From positions 1 through 45,184 of the forward strand of contig JAGXAQ010000013.1 of the NCBI GenBank assembly GCA_018971485.1: a DNA stretch of 45,184 nt. The letters run 5' to 3'. The translations under genes were made by a program, and so were the position numbers. The notes under the pieces were generated by a model. The model worked only from the letters and a program-made list of their open reading frames with translations, was not told the DNA's origin and made no database searches. Positions 35,236 through 45,184 of this stretch are shown here, one piece after another; position 1 is the stretch's first letter; each line of letters opens with the position of its first letter. This DNA is from Pseudomonadota bacterium (lineage in GTDB: Bacteria > Pseudomonadota > Gammaproteobacteria > Burkholderiales > REEB80).

Positions 35236-37566
35236 TTATTCCTTGATTAGGTTTTTTTCACATTTGCTTTCTATGGGGCGCTGTGTGGAAGGCCTTAACC
35301 ATAATGGTTTGAGCTTTAAGAAAAAATCATAGGCCATCAGCAAGGCACCCAGTGCAAAAACGACATCGCCAGGAAAACGGAGCCATTGCCACAACAAAGT
35401 GGTGTTGTAGAAAGTCAGGCTACGAGCGTAGGCATAACCATGTTGATAGACTGCAGCAAGCTGGGGCCAGCCAATGGGCCAGAAGTTCAGGGTAAGCCAC
35501 AAGACTAATCCACCGTTATACAGCCAGAATGCCCAAATTCCTAATTTTTCATTCCAGGGTGCACGCTCCCCTACTATATACCGTAAAGAGAAGTAAATCA
35601 GTCCGATGGCCAGCATGCCAAATGCTCCAAAAAGGGCTGTATGGGCATGAGCCAGTGTCAGGAAGGTACCATGTTCATAATAGTTGACCAGGGGTGCATT
35701 GAGCGTACCTCCACCAAGAACGCCTGCCCCCATGAAATTCCAGAAACCGGATCCAAGCAGGAATAGATAGGCAACCCTGTGCTGAAATCCGGCCTGTTGT
35801 CTGATTCTACGATATTGATCAAGTGATTCCAGAATAAGCAATACCAGCGGGATGACCTCGATGAATGAGAACATGGTGCCAACCCCGATCCACAAGCTTG
35901 GCCCGCCTACCCAGTAGAGGTGATGACCGGTTCCGAGATCGCCTCCTAGAAAAATCAGAATAGCTTCAAAGTAAAGGGCCCGTTCTGCAAGAATTCGGGA
36001 TACCAGCCCTAATGCCATGAGAATATAGGCGGTAATGGCAACGGTAAAAAGCTCAAAGGATTGTTCTACCCAAAGATGTACAACCCACCAGCGCCAGAAA
36101 TCGGTGATAGTGAAGGAGTGGTTGATACCAGTAATTGGAATCATGCCAAACAGATAGAGTATTGCAATGTTGACAGTACTGAGAAAAAGGATATGCTCCA
36201 CACGAATGCCACGGCCTAATGCCTTAAGTGTAGGCAGCATGGCCCGCAGGACAAGAAAGCTCCAGAATGCGAGTCCTATGAAAAACCCGATTTGCCAGAA
36301 TCGCCCAAGTTCCAGATAGGATAGCCCCTGGTTACCAAACCAGAACCAGTTCTGGTTGATGACACCCTGTATTCCAAGATAGTCTCCACCTAAAGCGCCA
36401 CCTACAATGAGAAGCGTTACCCAGAATAGAAGATCGACAAGCTTTCCTTGCCCTTTGGGTTCTTTCCCTCCAATCATGGGTGCAATAAAAAGGGCAGATC
36501 CTATCCAGGCAAGTCCAATCCAGATGATAGGGGCTTGAATATGCACGGATCGTAAAAATTCAAAAGGTAAAATGCTATTGATATTAATCCCGTAAAAATT
36601 GGTACGTTCAGCGTAATCATGGGCCATGGTTGCACCTGCTGCTATTTGTAACAGGAAGACTGCAGCCACCACCAGAAAATATTTTCCGGTTTTCTTCTGG
36701 CTTGGCGTAAGTTCTGGAAACCCTTTGAACAGTTGATGCCTGTCTTCTTCCTTTTCATGGGTCTCAATAAATCGTTTATAGAGGAAAAGGGTCAGGCCCA
36801 GCGCTGCCAGGAGCCAGAGGATAGATACCCAGGTCCAGATGAAGGTTTGGAGTGTCGGTGTATTTCCAACCAGGGGCTCGTATGGCCAGTTGCTCGTGTA
36901 GGAGTAGCTCTTCCCGGGGCGTCTTGCAACTGTGGTCAATGAAGAATACAGCAGGAAATCTGCTGCTTGCGTGGCAGTGGCTGGATTCAGGCTGCCTGCT
37001 TTGCTCCACCCTCGGGTAAAATGGTTGGTCAAGAGGTCGAGGCTGATTTTTCCTTGAAGCTCAGTCATGGCTTGAGCCAGGGCATCTGGAATTACCGAAA
37101 TCTTGTTGTGTAGCAAAGAAACGGATTGCAGTTGGGTTTGCATCTGTTTTTGAACTGCTATTTGCCTGGCCGGGCTCAGTCTGGAAAATTCTTCATGATA
37201 GATCTGATGGGCCAGGTTGGTTTCAGTTATTTTACCCAGACTGACTAGATACTGTGCTGTGTAGTCTTCACCGAAATAAGATCCCATTCCATAGAGGCTG
37301 CCATAATCCATCAGATCTGCCTGTTGAAAAGCGGCTTTACCTTGAATGATATCTTTCTTCGTCATGATGAGATGGCCGGATTGGGTGACAAACTGGGCAG
37401 GTTGCGGTGGTGCTTGCCGGTAGGTGATTACTGTAGCCCATCCAAAGGCCGCGAAGGTGAAGATCACGATAGTCAGTAAAATCCATTTCAGAACAGATGA
37501 AACCTGATCCCGTGGTTCAGCTAAGGCATGCCGGGTGTTTATTCGTGCAAGATTAGGGGAAGTCAT
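35236..37566 (-). CDS. norB: Quinol-dependent nitric oxide reductase (qNOR)
   Basis: Reduces 2 NO to N2O at the inner membrane with electrons from quinol. The 776-residue length and the fused N-terminal hydrophilic domain (about 55-235, including DLMDYGSLYGMGSYFGEDYT) identify the single-subunit qNOR rather than cytochrome-c NorBC. About 14 helices follow. Metal ligands align with cNOR: haem b His342 and His642, haem b3 His640 (HAHTALFGAFG), FeB His497, His548 and His549 (VVHLWVE, GTGHHLYW), and the essential Glu501. AAGGA precedes the ATG. It is the last gene of the minus-strand cluster, 142 bases after a DUF2249 gene. Confidence 0.97.
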   Translation of the reverse strand: MTSPNLARINTRHALAEPRDQVSSVLKWILLTIVIFTFAAFGWATVITYRQAPPQPAQFVTQSGHLIMTKKDIIQGKAAFQQADLMDYGSLYGMGSYFGEDYTAQYLVSLGKITETNLAHQIYHEEFSRLSPARQIAVQKQMQTQLQSVSLLHNKISVIPDALAQAMTELQGKISLDLLTNHFTRGWSKAGSLNPATATQAADFLLYSSLTTVARRPGKSYSYTSNWPYEPLVGNTPTLQTFIWTWVSILWLLAALGLTLFLYKRFIETHEKEEDRHQLFKGFPELTPSQKKTGKYFLVVAAVFLLQIAAGATMAHDYAERTNFYGININSILPFEFLRSVHIQAPIIWIGLAWIGSALFIAPMIGGKEPKGQGKLVDLLFWVTLLIVGGALGGDYLGIQGVINQNWFWFGNQGLSYLELGRFWQIGFFIGLAFWSFLVLRAMLPTLKALGRGIRVEHILFLSTVNIAILYLFGMIPITGINHSFTITDFWRWWVVHLWVEQSFELFTVAITAYILMALGLVSRILAERALYFEAILIFLGGDLGTGHHLYWVGGPSLWIGVGTMFSFIEVIPLVLLILESLDQYRRIRQQAGFQHRVAYLFLLGSGFWNFMGAGVLGGGTLNAPLVNYYEHGTFLTLAHAHTALFGAFGMLAIGLIYFSLRYIVGERAPWNEKLGIWAFWLYNGGLVLWLTLNFWPIGWPQLAAVYQHGYAYARSLTFYNTTLLWQWLRFPGDVVFALGALLMAYDFFLKLKPLWLRPSTQRPIESKCEKNLIKE

Positions 37567-37708
37567 GATTGATTCCTTCTGGCGTTTTTATTAAATCCAA
37601 GTTTAGTTGCTGAGTGTATTTAAACGCTGACTAAGAAACTGAATCAGGGGCGCGGGTGTCTTGCAATTTTCAGTGCACTTGTTTGTAACACCCATGCCCT
37701 GGAGGCTT

Positions 37709-37942
37709 TTAATGAACGCGTCCAATCCGTACCTGCCAGATGCGTGGTCCCTGTTCGAGATAATCCCAGGTAAACTGGTTCTTATGCTCTGCGTCAAACT
37801 GGTAATACAGCGGCTTTGGATCGTGGTCATTGACGAGGATAAAACCGGAACCCGGGCTTAATTTTTGATAGGTTTCAAAGATGATGCGGTGTCTATCCAT
37901 GGGAATCAGGCTTCGTACATCAAGAATTGGATCCTTTGTCAT
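37709..37942 (-). CDS. DUF2249 domain protein (single domain)
   Basis: A 77-residue protein covering one whole DUF2249 domain. It shows ILDVRSLIPMDRHRIIFETY, LSPGSGFILVNDHDPKPLYYQF and WDYLEQGPRIWQVRIGR. The fold is SirA/TusA-like. The family is found repeatedly beside nitric-oxide and nitrite-reductase genes, sometimes fused to hemerythrin or cupin domains, but its biochemical role is not established. AAAGGA precedes the ATG, which lies 23 bases inside the end of the upstream gene. Its neighbours argue for a role in NO metabolism. Confidence 0.9.
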   Translation of the reverse strand: MTKDPILDVRSLIPMDRHRIIFETYQKLSPGSGFILVNDHDPKPLYYQFDAEHKNQFTWDYLEQGPRIWQVRIGRVH

Positions 37943-38186
37943 GTGAATGTTCCTTTAAATTGATTGATGGGGAAAGCAACGGGTGTTGCTGAGATTGTTG
38001 CGTCAATGCATGCAAGACCCCGTTTAATCGTTCTGCCTCACGCGTATGGTTCAGCCTTAGTCGGGACCAGCCCCGGGCTGCAAGTTTGCACGCCTGTTCT
38101 ATTGCACCCTGGTTTCTTAGTTCCATCAGGGCCTCGATGAACAGACGGTTCAGCTCCTGTAAAGCATGTTGCTCTGAATGTTTCAT
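37920..38186 (-). CDS. Small helical protein of the NO-reductase cluster (88 aa)
   Basis: Not named. It is helical, with ALQELNRLFIEALMELRNQG, AIEQACKLAARGWSRLR and EAERLNGVLHALTQ. I recall similar short proteins with a conserved A(C)xLAAxGWxxLR...EAERLNGLLH pattern beside DUF2249 genes, function unknown. It overlaps the MIP18-family gene upstream by four bases and the DUF2249 gene downstream by 23, so all three are translationally coupled. Confidence 0.75.
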   Translation of the reverse strand: MKHSEQHALQELNRLFIEALMELRNQGAIEQACKLAARGWSRLRLNHTREAERLNGVLHALTQQSQQHPLLSPSINLKEHSHDKGSNS

Positions 38187-38503
38187 GAGGTAACCCCAAA
38201 ATGGGTCTTGGCTTTCTCACTCATGAGGCCAGGATGCCACTGGGGCTCCCAGACAACCTGTACATGAATTTTCTGTATGCCGGAAAGTGTTCCGAGGATG
38301 TGTCGAACCCCGGCAACAATATAATCCTGCGCAGGGCATCCCGGGGTGGTCATGGACATTTTGATGTTGACCTGTCCTTTACCGGCATGAATCTCATAAA
38401 CGAGGCCCAGATCCATGATGTTATAGCCTAGTTCAGGATCAATGACGGTATGGAGGGCATTGATAATCTGCTGGTTCAAGGAAGGCTCGGATATGTTTTT
38501 CAT
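38183..38503 (-). CDS. MIP18/DUF59 family iron-sulfur assembly-type protein
   Basis: About 106 residues from the ATG giving MKNISEPSL. The upstream 20 codons of open frame overlap the neighbouring gene and are not family-like. The DUF59 core is clear: INALHTVIDPELGYNIMDLG and IKMSMTTPGCPAQDYI with the reactive Cys, then VQVVWEPQWHPGLMS. Relatives include SufT, PaaD and the apbC-like N domain, which help Fe-S cluster maturation. Inside a NO-reductase cluster it may repair or load Fe-S or haem/Fe centres damaged by NO. That role is inference. Confidence 0.9.
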   Translation of the reverse strand: MKNISEPSLNQQIINALHTVIDPELGYNIMDLGLVYEIHAGKGQVNIKMSMTTPGCPAQDYIVAGVRHILGTLSGIQKIHVQVVWEPQWHPGLMSEKAKTHFGVTS

Positions 38504-38505
38504 GG

Positions 38506-39036
38506 CTACCCTACCCTGATCCAGATAAGTGTGGCACCCGGTTCCTTGGTTTGGGTATGCCATTCGTGCCCTGCCGTTTTCAGTTCCGGGTAAAGAAAAA
38601 CAGGTTCCCGGTCCAGCAATGCTTCTAACACATCGCCTGAATGCAAAGCGGGAAGTGCTTCTAGAATTCGTACCATCGGTTCTGGTGGGAGAAGGTTGCG
38701 GTTGTCCAGAACCAGGCAGGGTTTGGGCCAGGTTTCAAACGGGACATGATGCGCCTGAGTAGATTTTTGGTTGTTTTCGGGTTGATTTGTTTTAAGTGTA
38801 GGTTGCCGGGTAAAGAGCACTTCCCATTCGCCTCGATCCAATGAGCGGGATTCATGGCTGAAACCATGCTGTTTTAGTAAGGCATATAATGGTTTTGGCT
38901 CAAAAGTAGTAAATAGTCTTAACCCCTGATTGGGGATAAGTGCCGAAATGGCTTCAAGAATACGGGGTAGAGGTTCTCCCCCATGACTTAGTTCTTCCCG
39001 GACGTCCAGTGTAATATAAGCTTCATTGGGGTTCAT
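38506..39036 (-). CDS. Tandem DUF2249 protein (two domains)
   Basis: A 176-residue protein with two DUF2249 domains. The first (about 7-73) shows ITLDVREELSHGGEPLPRIL, LRLFTTFEPKPLYALL and GEWEVLFTR. The second (about 105-175) shows CLVLDNRNLLPPEPMVRILE, LLDREPVFLYPEL and GATLIWIRVG. In the second domain the usual LxVRxLxPxE reads LDNRNLLPPE. A Gln/Asn-rich linker joins them. It starts within the last 14 bases of the preceding membrane-protein gene and ends two bases before the MIP18 gene. Confidence 0.88.
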   Translation of the reverse strand: MNPNEAYITLDVREELSHGGEPLPRILEAISALIPNQGLRLFTTFEPKPLYALLKQHGFSHESRSLDRGEWEVLFTRQPTLKTNQPENNQKSTQAHHVPFETWPKPCLVLDNRNLLPPEPMVRILEALPALHSGDVLEALLDREPVFLYPELKTAGHEWHTQTKEPGATLIWIRVG

Positions 39037-40372
39037 GGCTGATTTTCTCCAGCGTATTAGGGGATAAACGGGGTTTTTTACTGATTAAATCCTGGTCAGG
39101 GTGCCTTGCATGCCAGAATTCGCGAATAAGGGCTAAAACTGCAATCAGTTGAATGAATGCCACCAGTTCAAACATGCTGCTTATTTTCCAGAATAGCAGG
39201 CTGGTATTGATGGCAACTCCTGCGAAATAAATGATGAACCAGGGTTTGGCGCGGGCTTCAATAACAAGATCCTGGACGCGCGGAACGGGTCCCTGGCCCA
39301 GCTTTATCCCAAAACGGTCAAGCCAGGTCAGGAAGGGCACTATTTTATAGAGCTGGCTTAAACCGAGGCCGGAAAGATATCCAAACATGAAGATAAAAAC
39401 TGTGGCAGGTAGGAATGAGGAGGCATCAAATATGGCCGCTGCCCCTGTAAGGATGGCCGGAGCAAAGAGGGTAAGAGCCATTGCTGCAGCTGTACTGTTA
39501 AGTTCAAGCGTTTTTCGTTGGCGGGAGTGATATAGGCGGGTGATATCCACGATATAGATGACAAGTCCTGATATCAGTAGTATCAACCCGAGCTTTTCGC
39601 ATGTATGGAGGATAGGGTTGGGGAACCACAGATTGAAGAGACCGGTCAGGACAAAAAGCGTTAGCCCTGTCGCAAGTGTTCCCCAGACACCAGTGCCCCA
39701 GTGTCCCCTGTCTTCTGGCGCAAGCATGAACATGGGTAGCAGTTTGTATCCAACCCCGATTGCCGTAAATCCAAGCCAGCCTACTAGCCCTGCAAGAATA
39801 TGGATGGGTAGTCCGTTTGACAGGAGGGGGTACAGTTCCAGTGGCGACTGGTCTGCTCCAAAACCAATGGCAAAGCACAGTCCGATACATAGGGTGAGAA
39901 TGAGAAAACCAAGGGAAGTGAGCAACATTTTTGCCGGGAGCTGAATAGGGCGGGTGCGTACAAGTGGAACAGCAATATTCCAGATATCAAGAAAGAACCC
40001 CGTTAGGACCAGTGTACCGCCTATGGGAAGCAGGATTTTCATGGACAAGGGAAAGCTGCCATTTAAAGCCAGAAAACCCATTACCATATTCAGTAGCCCG
40101 GCTTCTAGAAGGATAAGTCCTGCTAGCATGCCAGGCTGGCTAGGCAGGGGGTTATTCGTAATGACAGGAACAAATTGAGCCAGGGCACCTAACATGAGCA
40201 GGCTGAGCCAGCCAATTGTCATGAGATGGACAGCTATAAGGTTTGAGGGGGATGAAAATGACAAGGCCGGATAGGTGTGACCCGACACCATCATCCCCAG
40301 GGCCAGGATAAAATTGATGAGGGCACAACTGAAGTAGGTCATGGTCCATCTGGATAGCCGTGCATTCAGCAT
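39023..40372 (-). CDS. Polytopic membrane protein, haem-copper-oxidase-subunit-I-like, of the NO-reductase cluster
   Basis: A 449-residue protein with about 12 hydrophobic helices. Conserved-looking His-bearing segments are VHLMTIGWLSLLMLGALAQF near residue 48 and IHILAGLVGWLGFTAIGVGY near 190, followed by KLLPMFMLAPED. Similar proteins in denitrifiers are annotated as distant cbb3/NorB-type subunit I relatives, but the full set of metal ligands is not evident, so I would not call it an oxidase. It lacks the WHxHEM motif of NnrS. It is the first large gene of the transcript that includes qNOR and may handle NO or haem/copper at the membrane. Confidence 0.8.
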   Translation of the reverse strand: MLNARLSRWTMTYFSCALINFILALGMMVSGHTYPALSFSSPSNLIAVHLMTIGWLSLLMLGALAQFVPVITNNPLPSQPGMLAGLILLEAGLLNMVMGFLALNGSFPLSMKILLPIGGTLVLTGFFLDIWNIAVPLVRTRPIQLPAKMLLTSLGFLILTLCIGLCFAIGFGADQSPLELYPLLSNGLPIHILAGLVGWLGFTAIGVGYKLLPMFMLAPEDRGHWGTGVWGTLATGLTLFVLTGLFNLWFPNPILHTCEKLGLILLISGLVIYIVDITRLYHSRQRKTLELNSTAAAMALTLFAPAILTGAAAIFDASSFLPATVFIFMFGYLSGLGLSQLYKIVPFLTWLDRFGIKLGQGPVPRVQDLVIEARAKPWFIIYFAGVAINTSLLFWKISSMFELVAFIQLIAVLALIREFWHARHPDQDLISKKPRLSPNTLEKISHEPQ

Positions 40373-40500: not shown

Positions 40501-40602
40501 GATTAATGTCCCATGAATATTTGCATCTAAAATACGCTTTAATTTAAATATTACTGTTTATTAATAGCATGTTATTTTTATATTTTATAATATAAAAAAT
40601 TA

Positions 40603-40641
40603 AACATGTATTAATTATACATGTTTAATCAGGCTTGACAA
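40603..40641 (-). promoter_or_regulatory. NsrR-type operator overlapping the promoter of the NO-reductase cluster
   Basis: The palindrome has arms AACATGTAT (40603-40611) and ATACATGTT (40617-40625) around TAATT, extended to perfect 13-bp arms at 40599-40629. Length and half-sites fit the NsrR consensus (AAnATGyATTT-n-AAATrCATnTT). On the minus strand it overlaps a promoter with TTGTCA at 40641-40636, a 16-base spacer and TATAAT at 40619-40614. The start would be near 40607, so the box spans about -19 to +5, ideal for steric repression. NsrR is a Fe-S repressor that releases DNA when nitrosylated. Confidence 0.75.
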
Positions 40642-42908: not shown

Positions 42909-44309
42909 TTATTTTTCGCCTCCACTATGATAAAGGGCGGGGTTGGGTGAACCGGATACAAGTAAAAAGCCGCTTAATCCCTGCTCCATTCTCGATAGAG
43001 CATGATCAACCAGAATATATTTTCCCGGTTCCCGTAATTTAAACTGCCCCATAAAAGCACCTCCTGGAGGAACTAGTATTGTTTGAACATCCCTGATGGG
43101 CTTGTTGGCCAGGGAACCCCAAGGCCAAGCTTTCTCGAATTGCTCGCCAATGACATGAAATGAAGAAGCAAAATTCGGGCCAGCATCACCGAAGAAGATC
43201 CGGACAGTATCACCAACCTTGGCCTGAAGGGGATGATCCTGGGTCAGAGCCCCCACTGAACCATTGAATACAAAGTAATCTGGTGTCTCCTTGAGTAACT
43301 TATGTACGCTGAACTCCTGATTGCCGCGTTTTCCAAATGGCCCAGCCGTATATATTTCGCTTTGCATGACATAAAATTCCTCGTTTACTCTCGGGAGCCC
43401 GCCAGCAGGTTCGACCAGGATCATTCCAAACATTCCATTGGCAATATGTTCAGCTACCATGGGTGTGCCGCAGTGATAAACAAATAAGCCCGGGTGTAGT
43501 AGCTTGAAAGTGATTGTTTTTTCTTTTCCTGGAGGTGTTTGCAATAGCATGGCCCCACCTCCTGGCCCAATGACCGCATGCAGGTCAATAGAATGGATCA
43601 TGTGGCTTGTTGCCGGGTTGGAAAGATGAAGTACTACAGTATCACCAACACGAACCCGAATCATGGGGCCTGGAACTTTGCCATTAAAAGTCCAGTAATG
43701 ATAGGTTGTTTTATCGGCTAGTTTCCCAGTCAATTCTTCGGCTTTCAGAAAGATTTGAACTGATTTTGGTCCACGGTGCCCCACAGGAGGTGGAAGATCA
43801 GCTGGATTACGGGAAATATCGGAAATACCAGTCAGCGAAGGGACTGGTATTTCTTTTCCCACAATGATTTTCCCGTTCATGCCTGCTGCGCGATGCCCAG
43901 GCATGTTGCAGTAATAATTAAACTGGCCTTCCTTATTGGCACGAAAGACGATAGTTGCGCTTGCTCCCTTTGTGCTTACGGTTCCAGACAGGGCATGAAA
44001 TTGAGGGACAGTAATGTCATGAATAGCCCCATCACCATTAATCAGGGTGATTTGGACAAGGCTGTTAGGTTGTATATGCAGGATCGGGTTGATATGACCA
44101 TCAATATTTCCCCCGACACCAACAAATTCCATCCCGGAATTGCCTGTTTCAGTTTTTAAGGTATATGAAACATTTGGAACATACCCGGATGAGTGTGGTA
44201 GTTTGTTTGTTTGAGCATCAGCTTGAGACGTGAATAATCCAGTAAGAATCAATCCTGTTATTAGTTGTGCCATAGTGCGTTTTGATCGGGTTTTTAAGTT
44301 GATTTTCAT
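42909..44309 (-). CDS. nirK: Copper nitrite reductase NirK with N-terminal cupredoxin domain
   Basis: Periplasmic enzyme reducing nitrite to NO. Of 466 residues, 1-32 are a signal peptide. Residues about 45-150 are an extra type 1 copper cupredoxin (His97, Cys134, His139, Met144). The rest is the two-domain NirK. Its type 1 copper ligands are His239, Cys280, His288 and Met293. Type 2 copper ligands are His244, His279 and His436. Catalytic Asp242 and His385 are present. The eight-residue Cys-to-His loop ending HIANGM is the AniA (class II) form. GGGAGGAG precedes the ATG. The fused donor domain is known from Hyphomicrobium-type NirK. FNR- and NsrR-type boxes lie upstream. Confidence 0.95.
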   Translation of the reverse strand: MKINLKTRSKRTMAQLITGLILTGLFTSQADAQTNKLPHSSGYVPNVSYTLKTETGNSGMEFVGVGGNIDGHINPILHIQPNSLVQITLINGDGAIHDITVPQFHALSGTVSTKGASATIVFRANKEGQFNYYCNMPGHRAAGMNGKIIVGKEIPVPSLTGISDISRNPADLPPPVGHRGPKSVQIFLKAEELTGKLADKTTYHYWTFNGKVPGPMIRVRVGDTVVLHLSNPATSHMIHSIDLHAVIGPGGGAMLLQTPPGKEKTITFKLLHPGLFVYHCGTPMVAEHIANGMFGMILVEPAGGLPRVNEEFYVMQSEIYTAGPFGKRGNQEFSVHKLLKETPDYFVFNGSVGALTQDHPLQAKVGDTVRIFFGDAGPNFASSFHVIGEQFEKAWPWGSLANKPIRDVQTILVPPGGAFMGQFKLREPGKYILVDHALSRMEQGLSGFLLVSGSPNPALYHSGGEK

Positions 44310-44347
44310 TTGCGCTCCTCCCTTTTTTGTTTAATTGCTATGGGTTT

Positions 44348-44389
44348 ATTCTATTCAGGGCCTGTTGGCCTGGTTTTGATCATGATCAA
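44348..44389 (-). promoter_or_regulatory. Class II FNR/Dnr-type promoter of nirK
   Basis: The perfect box TTGATCATGATCAA lies at 44376-44389. On the minus strand a -10 element TAGAAT occupies 44353-44348, predicting initiation near 44341. The box centre (44382.5) is then at -41.5, the canonical position for FNR-family activators, and no separate -35 is needed. FNR, Dnr or NnrR could bind; sequence does not separate them. Confidence 0.8.
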
Positions 44390-44411
44390 ATATGTATTTA
44401 AAATACATATT
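44389..44411 (-). promoter_or_regulatory. Perfect NsrR-type palindrome upstream of nirK
   Basis: AATATGTATTT (44389-44399), a central A, and AAATACATATT (44401-44411) form a flawless 11-1-11 palindrome matching the NsrR consensus. It shares one base with the FNR-type box and is centred near -59 of the predicted nirK start, so a bound repressor could block the activator. Confidence 0.75.
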
Positions 44412-44561
44412 TATTAAGTTGATTGTTTATTTAAGGGTTTTATTGGGATTTAGGATTACTTGTGTTATTGAGTGCTATTGGAAATAAAGGAGAATCTCCG
44501 TATAGGGGAACATGGCAGAATGGTTTTTTTATGTTTTTTGATGTTAATTAAAAAGACGCTT

Positions 44562-44783
44562 TCAAGGCTCCTGTGTGATGGCGGTGAAGTCTTTGTTCCT
44601 GGGGAAGTAGTGCCGTATCAGCCCATTGGTATTCTCGTTCGTGCCGTGCTCCCGGGACGCATAGGGATGAGCAAAACAGGAGCCCGGCTTCCGTTGTCTG
44701 GCAATCACTTCATGCGCTTCAAATTCCTGTCCGTAGTACACATTCAGAACAGGCAGGTGGTCAGCCATAAAGATGTGGCACAT
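44562..44783 (-). pseudogene. IS30-family transposase remnant
   Basis: Read on the minus strand it gives LPVLNVYYGQEFEAHEVIAR, then FAHPYASREHGTNENTNGLI and RHYFPRNKDFTAITQ. This is the second catalytic-Asp region and the catalytic-Glu region of an IS30 DDE transposase. The usual SDNGKEF is degraded to YYGQEF, and the N-terminus and the last 40 residues are missing. It is the same subfamily as the fragment at 1925-2119 but in the opposite orientation. Confidence 0.8.
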
Positions 44784-44823
44784 TCTCGTGATGGCGACCC
44801 CTCATGGGAGAGGAGAGTTCAAT

Positions 44824-45184
44824 ATGGCTGGCCTGACCAGGAGTAAAGCCTCTGCCTCATGGAGGGCACTAGACATTGCAAAGGATTTCAATGCGGTGAT
44901 GGTTGAAACACAAGGCAGAACCATACGTCAATTCAAAAGGCCCAGTTCTGTATCTGGCCATAACCGTTTGATCGGCTATATCAAGACCTTGCCGGATTGG
45001 TTGCGAAGCCACAGGAAATTACCACTGGACGCTTGGCTACCGCTTGAGTGCCGGGGGTTTTGATACTTGCCGGGTTTTGTCTGTGGCGGGAGCATGTTAT
45101 CGTGAAGTGATGTTCAATTCCCGGGACAAGAATGATCCAAAGGATGCACATGGGTTGCTGCAGTTGCCCTGGCAAGGTATTACA
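44824..45184 (+). pseudogene. IS110-family transposase, N-terminal part, frameshifted and cut by the window edge
   Basis: The gene starts at ATG 44824 with a strong GGAGAGGAG. Frame 1 reads WRALDIAKDFNAVMVETQGR through GYIKTLPD. The sequence then continues in frame 2 from about 44996 with IGCEATGNYHWTLGYRL, VLSVAGACYREVMFNSRDKN and DPKDAHGLL. The DEDD RuvC-like residues (Asp in LDIAKD, Glu in EATGNYH, Asp in DPKDA) are recognisable. The shift near 44990-45000 breaks the reading frame unless it is a sequencing error. The Tnp20 half would lie beyond the window. Confidence 0.85.

Follow-up and report, generated by a model that had tools for sequence, protein, structure and literature searches.

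In the window analyzed here, a stretch of 45,184 bases from a 1.93-Mb genome, the gene nirK for a copper nitrite reductase is preceded by an exact FNR-type box and, directly upstream of this, by a perfect NsrR-type palindrome. The sequence tests described below lend good support to the view that this arrangement is functional, and by analogy with characterized systems nirK probably has a class II FNR-dependent promoter, at which an NsrR operator directly upstream of the activator site blocks activation until nitric oxide (NO) appears.

The nirK gene (positions 42909-44309, minus strand) encodes a protein of 466 amino acids with an N-terminal cupredoxin domain. It was identified with TIGR02376, for which the product reaches 330 bits at a cut-off of 296, and by a Pfam search that returned Cu-oxidase and cupredoxin domains. 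When the minus strand is read toward the gene, the palindrome is followed by the FNR-type box, 22 bases, the hexamer TAGAAT and finally the start codon, with the Shine-Dalgarno-like sequence GGGAGGAG (44315-44322, minus strand, read from the sequence) immediately 5' of the ATG. TAGAAT (44348-44353, minus strand) matches the -10 consensus in five of six positions; on the assumption that it occupies -12 to -7 (44353-44348), counting from it predicts transcription to start at an A at position 44341 on the minus strand. The FNR-type box TTGATCATGATCAA (44376-44389, minus strand) agrees with the consensus without a mismatch, and its center at 44382.5 lies at -41.5, as the original prediction had it with correct coordinates and counts. 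Relative to the predicted start, the motif TTGATNNNNATCAA is hence found near -41.5, as in class II promoters, and TAGAAT provides a -10 element at a fitting distance.

The NsrR-type operator is centered at -59. Its core ATGTATTTTAAATACAT (44392-44408, minus strand) does not deviate at any position from the published consensus ATGyAT-N5-ATrCAT (PMC1274295) and is embedded in an inverted repeat of the 11-1-11 form described for NsrR operators (PMC5320621), the arms of which are perfect; the outer bases are t/a where the NsrR consensus has g/c. The flawless 11-1-11 palindrome that had been predicted is indeed present at 44389-44411, and its symmetry extends further to 12-1-12 (44388-44412, minus strand). 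As a consequence, the overlap of a single base between the two sites, also part of the original prediction, applies to the 23-mer at 44389-44411 and not to the palindrome in its full extent, which shares two bases with the FNR-type box. Transposase debris lies further upstream. By visual inspection, a minus-strand reading frame (44562-44800) resembles the terminal part of an IS30-like transposase and stops 150 bases short of the palindrome, and the plus strand at the contig end (44822-45184) looks like a broken IS110-like element. A 95-aa open reading frame at 44776-45060 gave no match in Pfam, PHROGs or PADLOC.

Chance expectation for the two sites is low. The nirK operator is the sole palindrome with a one-base center and arms of at least nine bases in the window, and 0.01 copies of the palindrome with up to three mismatches would be expected there. 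When the 250 upstream bases were dinucleotide-shuffled 20,000 times, three of the resulting sequences contained an 11-1-11 palindrome, nine an exact FNR box and none both. Across the genome there are 15 exact FNR boxes compared to none in the reversed control, and by our own count nine of the 15 are located inside genes. This count started from the 13 of 15 loci with a listed open reading frame context, nine of which fell within a frame of at least 70 aa; it was then adjusted by discounting a doubtful 89-aa frame over one box (L017) and by adding one locus that shares its frame with another (L015 and L014) as well as the nirK site. Because most exact boxes sit in genes, the FNR box taken alone is the weaker evidence.

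A search of the genome for fnr/dnr and nsrR genes yielded two FNR-type proteins and one NsrR-like protein, so that the original prediction does not founder on a lack of regulators. Three Rrf2 proteins exceeded the PF02082 cut-off, namely IscR, a SUF-type regulator and the NsrR-like protein, and there was one additional weak match. The NsrR-like protein has NsrR as its top NCBIfam match (140.8 bits), followed by RirA (116.5 bits), and an alignment with a solved NsrR (5n07) matches its three C-terminal cysteines to those of that protein; on the basis of this top match and the three aligned cysteines, the genome encodes a putative NsrR. The score is below the equivalog cut-off of 182 bits for NF008240. 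NsrR-like proteins from elsewhere in the order, four of which scored 114.5 to 137.9 bits, fall short of it as well, and strict membership in NF008240 is therefore not claimed. Searching with PF13545 revealed two CRP/FNR-type proteins over the cut-off, while the third, weak match was the NsrR-like protein itself; no candidate for a separate DNR/NnrR activator was found in the genome by this search. Both FNR-type proteins carry a C-X2-C-X5-C motif and a later cysteine (read by eye), i.e., the four cysteines of an FNR cluster. Their scores with the FNR model are 232 and 182 bits at a cut-off of 228, which one of them passes, and one of the two (L007) aligns with a solved FNR. Two of the exact FNR boxes in the genome (L016 and L017; G000 contig C13, 54468-54518) lie 37 bases apart between genes read by eye as encoding a universal stress protein and an Hsp20-like protein, adjoining one of the fnr genes.

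The exact NsrR core occurs at three places in the genome and at none in the reversed control. Besides the nirK promoter, these are a site 3.8 kb away that precedes a run of genes ending in NO reductase, and a position inside an open reading frame read by eye as fabF. The site before the NO-reductase run is a second NsrR-type operator on the minus strand (40601-40627) with arms of 11 bases, as judged by eye, and a core (40606-40622) without mismatches. It overlaps the -10 element of the best-scoring sigma-70-like match in the scanned region, TTGTCA-16-TATAAT (40614-40641, minus strand; 11 of 12 positions), a putative promoter that comes from a consensus scan only and belongs to a class of matches that is not in excess in this region (11 compared to 12.7 in shuffles). 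The leader predicted from this promoter to the first large open reading frame would measure about 235 bases. According to domain searches, the same-strand run (35236-40372, minus strand) comprises genes for a membrane protein, a DUF2249 protein, a protein with an FeS-assembly domain, an 88-aa open reading frame, another DUF2249 protein (37709-37942) and a norZ-like NO reductase with COX1 and NorB cytochrome-c-like domains (35236-37566, minus strand), and it may be transcribed as a unit. The 449-aa membrane-protein-like frame (39023-40372, minus strand) gave no Pfam or NCBIfam match and is unlike the NnrS of this genome. Neither an exact nor a one-mismatch FNR box is present in the gap upstream of the run. 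Ahead of the NO reductase gene itself, positions 37865-37878 resemble an FNR box, but they fall inside DUF2249 coding sequence and were rejected.

When the core was searched with a TTNAA center and up to two mismatches, four places were found in the genome compared to two in the reversed control. These were the nirK promoter and positions ahead of a hemerythrin-hemerythrin-nnrS run (at a distance of about 60 bases), the nsrR-like gene and an ArsR-like gene. The site at the nsrR-like gene is located about 100 bases before the chosen start (MQL); the listed open reading frame opens earlier, at the site itself. The match at the ArsR-like gene (C4:22406), situated before or in its first codons as read by eye, was set aside as a probable chance occurrence. 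A genome of the same genus (G001) contains no match to nirK and encodes an NsrR-like protein that is 75% identical to the one studied here. In this genome the identical 17-base core, flanked by canonical outer bases, appears as AAGATGTATTTAAAATACATCTT before a pair of hemerythrin genes, the second product of which is 50% and the first 29% identical to its counterpart. The G001 genome yields 15 hits with up to two mismatches and its control yields six, which implies that weak core matches alone mean little. An exact FNR box, TTGATACAAATCAA (L106), is located upstream of the nsrR-like gene of G001, and this gene may therefore be under FNR control.

We then asked whether the paired sites recur. 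A direct search for the pair pattern in 399 genomes of the order, our own included, retrieved three genomes: our own, G005 and G066, the last with a gap of seven bases. In G066, which belongs to a different family of the order, the FNR-type box and the exact NsrR core lie at 18494-18531 of contig C24 (L079). As the exact pattern misses operators of the Neisseria form, a relaxed pattern was applied to 29 nirK loci. These stem from the 31 other genomes among the 399 that have a strong nirK match; G033 and G077 contributed no locus to this set, and the G033 locus L034, scanned separately, gave no hit. In seven of the 29 loci an NsrR core with up to two mismatches is situated directly upstream of an FNR box before nirK, the AniA-type composite that is also present in our genome. 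The distance between the centers of core and box is 17.5 bases in our genome, 18.5 in six of the nine promoters of family f44 and 16.5 in one of the three of family f5 (G005); of the other two f5 promoters, that of G054 has a recognizable but degenerate form and was not counted, and that of G352 lacks the pair at this place. Three of the nine f44 promoters have no NsrR site at the upstream position. In two of these (L096 and L097), an NsrR-like match overlaps the FNR box from downstream, with its center at +4.5, possibly as an alternative geometry. Eight of the nine f44 loci contain a further site of NsrR form 314 to 358 bases upstream of the start, as the two-site layout of Neisseria predicts. 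Family f44 may well represent the Neisseriaceae, judging from one AniA-like lipoprotein start (L030) and the ATTyAT form of the operator.

A shuffle test was performed on 17 promoters, our own and those of the 16 among the 29 loci that have a plausible FNR box (L092, L095 and L103, with boxes at -22, 0 and -243, were dropped together with the rest). The pair was present in eight of them compared to 0.13 expected, a favorable figure in that the offsets were fixed after the scan and the promoters are related, such that the true contrast is smaller. All nine f44 promoters carry CATAAT at the 22-base spacing after the FNR box. In total, a -10 hexamer with five of six matches occupies this place in 11 of the 16 promoters examined (our own, the nine of f44 and L099), and it is absent from the remaining five, among them both f5 promoters examined, including that of G005 with its pair. 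In families f34 and f23, promoters with an FNR box have no NsrR site at the corresponding place. Taken together, the regulator identities, which the original prediction had derived from consensus motifs, are now backed by the second site before the NO-reductase run, by the weaker sites before the nsrR-like gene and the hemerythrin-nnrS run, by the site in the same genus and by the recurrence of the pair at some other nirK promoters. The sites in our genome and in G001 place the NsrR motif in the NO circuitry of this lineage.

The closest relatives of nirK failed as a source of conserved promoter sequence, since paired sites were not found in them. Neither site is present within 400 bases of the closest homologue in the order (G351, 53% identity), and up to 700 bases before the match in the loci of seven further relatives contain no NsrR-like site with up to two mismatches. 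With regard to the FNR box, three of these loci (L059, L064 and L065) have none in the scanned upstream stretch, a box with one mismatch occurs in three (L060, L061 and L062) at distances of 510 to 631 bases from the match, and an exact one in L063 at 461 bases; L059, with 649 scanned bases, and L062, with a run of unknown bases, are partial tests. The best named relatives of the NirK protein originate from Acidicaldus, Acetobacteraceae, Chloroflexi and alphaproteobacterial and archaeal metagenome-assembled genomes (52-61% identity over the best segment), and their occurrence in such distant lineages suggests possible horizontal transfer. The closest relatives, G351 and mostly acidophile-type or metagenome-assembled genomes, lack the paired sites, and distant AniA-type genes in other families possess them, each with a spacing of its own. 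We therefore put forward, only tentatively and as a rather doubtful possibility, that nirK was acquired horizontally and received its composite operator independently. If this were true, placing NsrR hard against the upstream side of a class II FNR box would be a solution at which evolution arrives repeatedly, and nirK would be predicted to respond to NO as a band-pass.

The proposed double switch at nirK resembles the layout of aniA in Neisseria; the arrangement is not new, the example is. Regulation of neisserial aniA (nirK) by FNR, NsrR and NarQP has been described (PMC1274295, PMC1802743, PMC10187123). Control by NsrR and FNR was predicted in 2005 (PMC1274295) and has been tested since: FNR is essential for aniA and NsrR represses it (PMC10187123). 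Induction of aniA by nitrite requires inactivation of NsrR by NO, according to earlier work cited in PMC1802743, and two candidate NsrR sites are given for the neisserial intergenic region (PMC1274295). The norB gene is dominated by NsrR and has no FNR site nearby in the account of PMC10187123. When nitrite was absent, one aniA reporter in the meningococcal study rose 5-fold upon loss of nsrR and the gonococcal reporter did not change significantly; aniA remained inducible by nitrite in an nsrR mutant (PMC10187123); from these reporter differences it appears that the weight of NsrR at such promoters varies. Our locus shares with Neisseria the FNR box upstream of a nitrite reductase gene, an NsrR site close to it and a nearby NO reductase gene with an NsrR site of its own. 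The spacing from box to -10 element is the same as in all nine f44 promoters, and the distance between the centers is nearly equal (17.5 bases compared to 18.5 in six of these nine). It differs in that the operator has the general ATGyAT core instead of the neisserial ATTyAT form, in the N-terminal cupredoxin domain of NirK, and in the position of the NO reductase gene, which is downstream on the same strand and not divergent as in Neisseria.

Other systems share single aspects. The copper nitrite reductase gene nirK of Nitrosomonas europaea is under NsrR, although coupling to FNR does not figure in what PMC1274295 says about it. In Chromobacterium violaceum, norB and nirK also combine an activator box with an NsrR site at a denitrification promoter; there, however, a DNR site is upstream and the NsrR site downstream (PMC1274295), whereas at our locus the NsrR site is the upstream one and the activator is FNR-like. 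The enterobacterial hcp-hcr promoter joins low oxygen to nitrogen oxides through the same two regulators, but its NsrR site is downstream of the FNR site (PMC1274295). Among titles and abstract openings of the open-licence literature, we found no study that treats the abutting geometry as such, which is not to say that none has been published.

Several other explanations have to be weighed. Both sites could be real and yet act largely independently, with NsrR at -59 as a weak modulator and with FNR and another input, e.g., a nitrate/nitrite two-component system, setting expression. This would agree with the lasting nitrite induction of aniA in the nsrR mutant and the reporter without significant change (PMC10187123), as well as with the three of nine f44 promoters without an upstream NsrR site; on the other hand, the perfect symmetry of the operator and the rarity of its core, with only three exact copies in the genome, suggest strong binding, and we consider largely independent action unlikely. 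It is very unlikely that the palindrome serves a regulator other than NsrR, be it one of the other Rrf2 proteins (IscR or the SUF-type one) or some unknown repressor. Two further Rrf2 proteins do exceed the cut-off and the outer bases depart from the consensus, but the core is identical to the published NsrR core, among the other core-like sites of the genome are some at NO-related genes and one ahead of the nsrR-like gene, and the site with canonical outer bases in G001 precedes a hemerythrin pair.

The FNR-type box could likewise be read by an NO-responsive activator of the DNR/NnrR type, which would make the promoter doubly NO-dependent. The DNR box consensus, CTTGATnnnnATCAAG, is indeed nearly the same (PMC1274295), but the base preceding the box is T and not C, and just two CRP/FNR-type proteins exceed the PF13545 cut-off, each with FNR-type cysteines, so that we regard this reading as highly improbable. 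Finally, the IS30-like transposase end, being so close to the palindrome, might hint at a chance juxtaposition or a relic of transposon debris. The two elements did not arise together in any of the shuffles, however, and the paired arrangement recurs at other nirK promoters, which leaves this explanation with hardly any credibility; an origin of the palindrome from the insertion sequence end was set aside for the reason that its core recurs elsewhere.

For the preferred reading, a class II FNR promoter held in check by NsrR, we infer binding, repression, the response to the gases, the steric step and the operon structure as follows. In the presence of oxygen, FNR would lose its cluster and nirK would be silent. 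When both gases are absent, FNR would be able to act, yet NsrR bearing its cluster would occupy -59 and prevent activation. At class II promoters, RNA polymerase reaches the activator from upstream with the C-terminal domains of its alpha subunits, and NsrR at -59 would cover the upstream edge of the FNR box together with the DNA available to these domains. Once NO damages its cluster, NsrR would leave and FNR would recruit polymerase. As NirK makes NO, such a loop would be self-reinforcing. The same NO would free the NO-reductase run, the predicted promoter of which has an NsrR site over its -10 element; with an NsrR site and without an FNR box at that run, two locks would guard the NO source and a single one the NO sink. 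At high concentrations, NO would damage FNR and turn nirK off again.

The original prediction saw nirK as an AND gate for low oxygen and NO. Such a gate appears plausible from the motifs, and its experimental basis is borrowed from Neisseria; since FNR is inactivated by NO (PMC4601167, a review), a response confined to a band of NO concentrations would be likelier than a simple AND. The prediction also held that the two regulators should compete or interlock because of the shared base. A shared base alone is no proof of competition, and blocking the upstream contacts of polymerase would serve equally well. The natural spacings of 16.5, 17.5 and 18.5 bases favor plain exclusion over phased contact, and they lend themselves to simple reporter tests of the way in which NsrR, bound upstream, would block a class II activator. 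The locus thus illustrates, in a clean and compact form, how two signals may control the NO source of a denitrifier and a single signal its NO sink.
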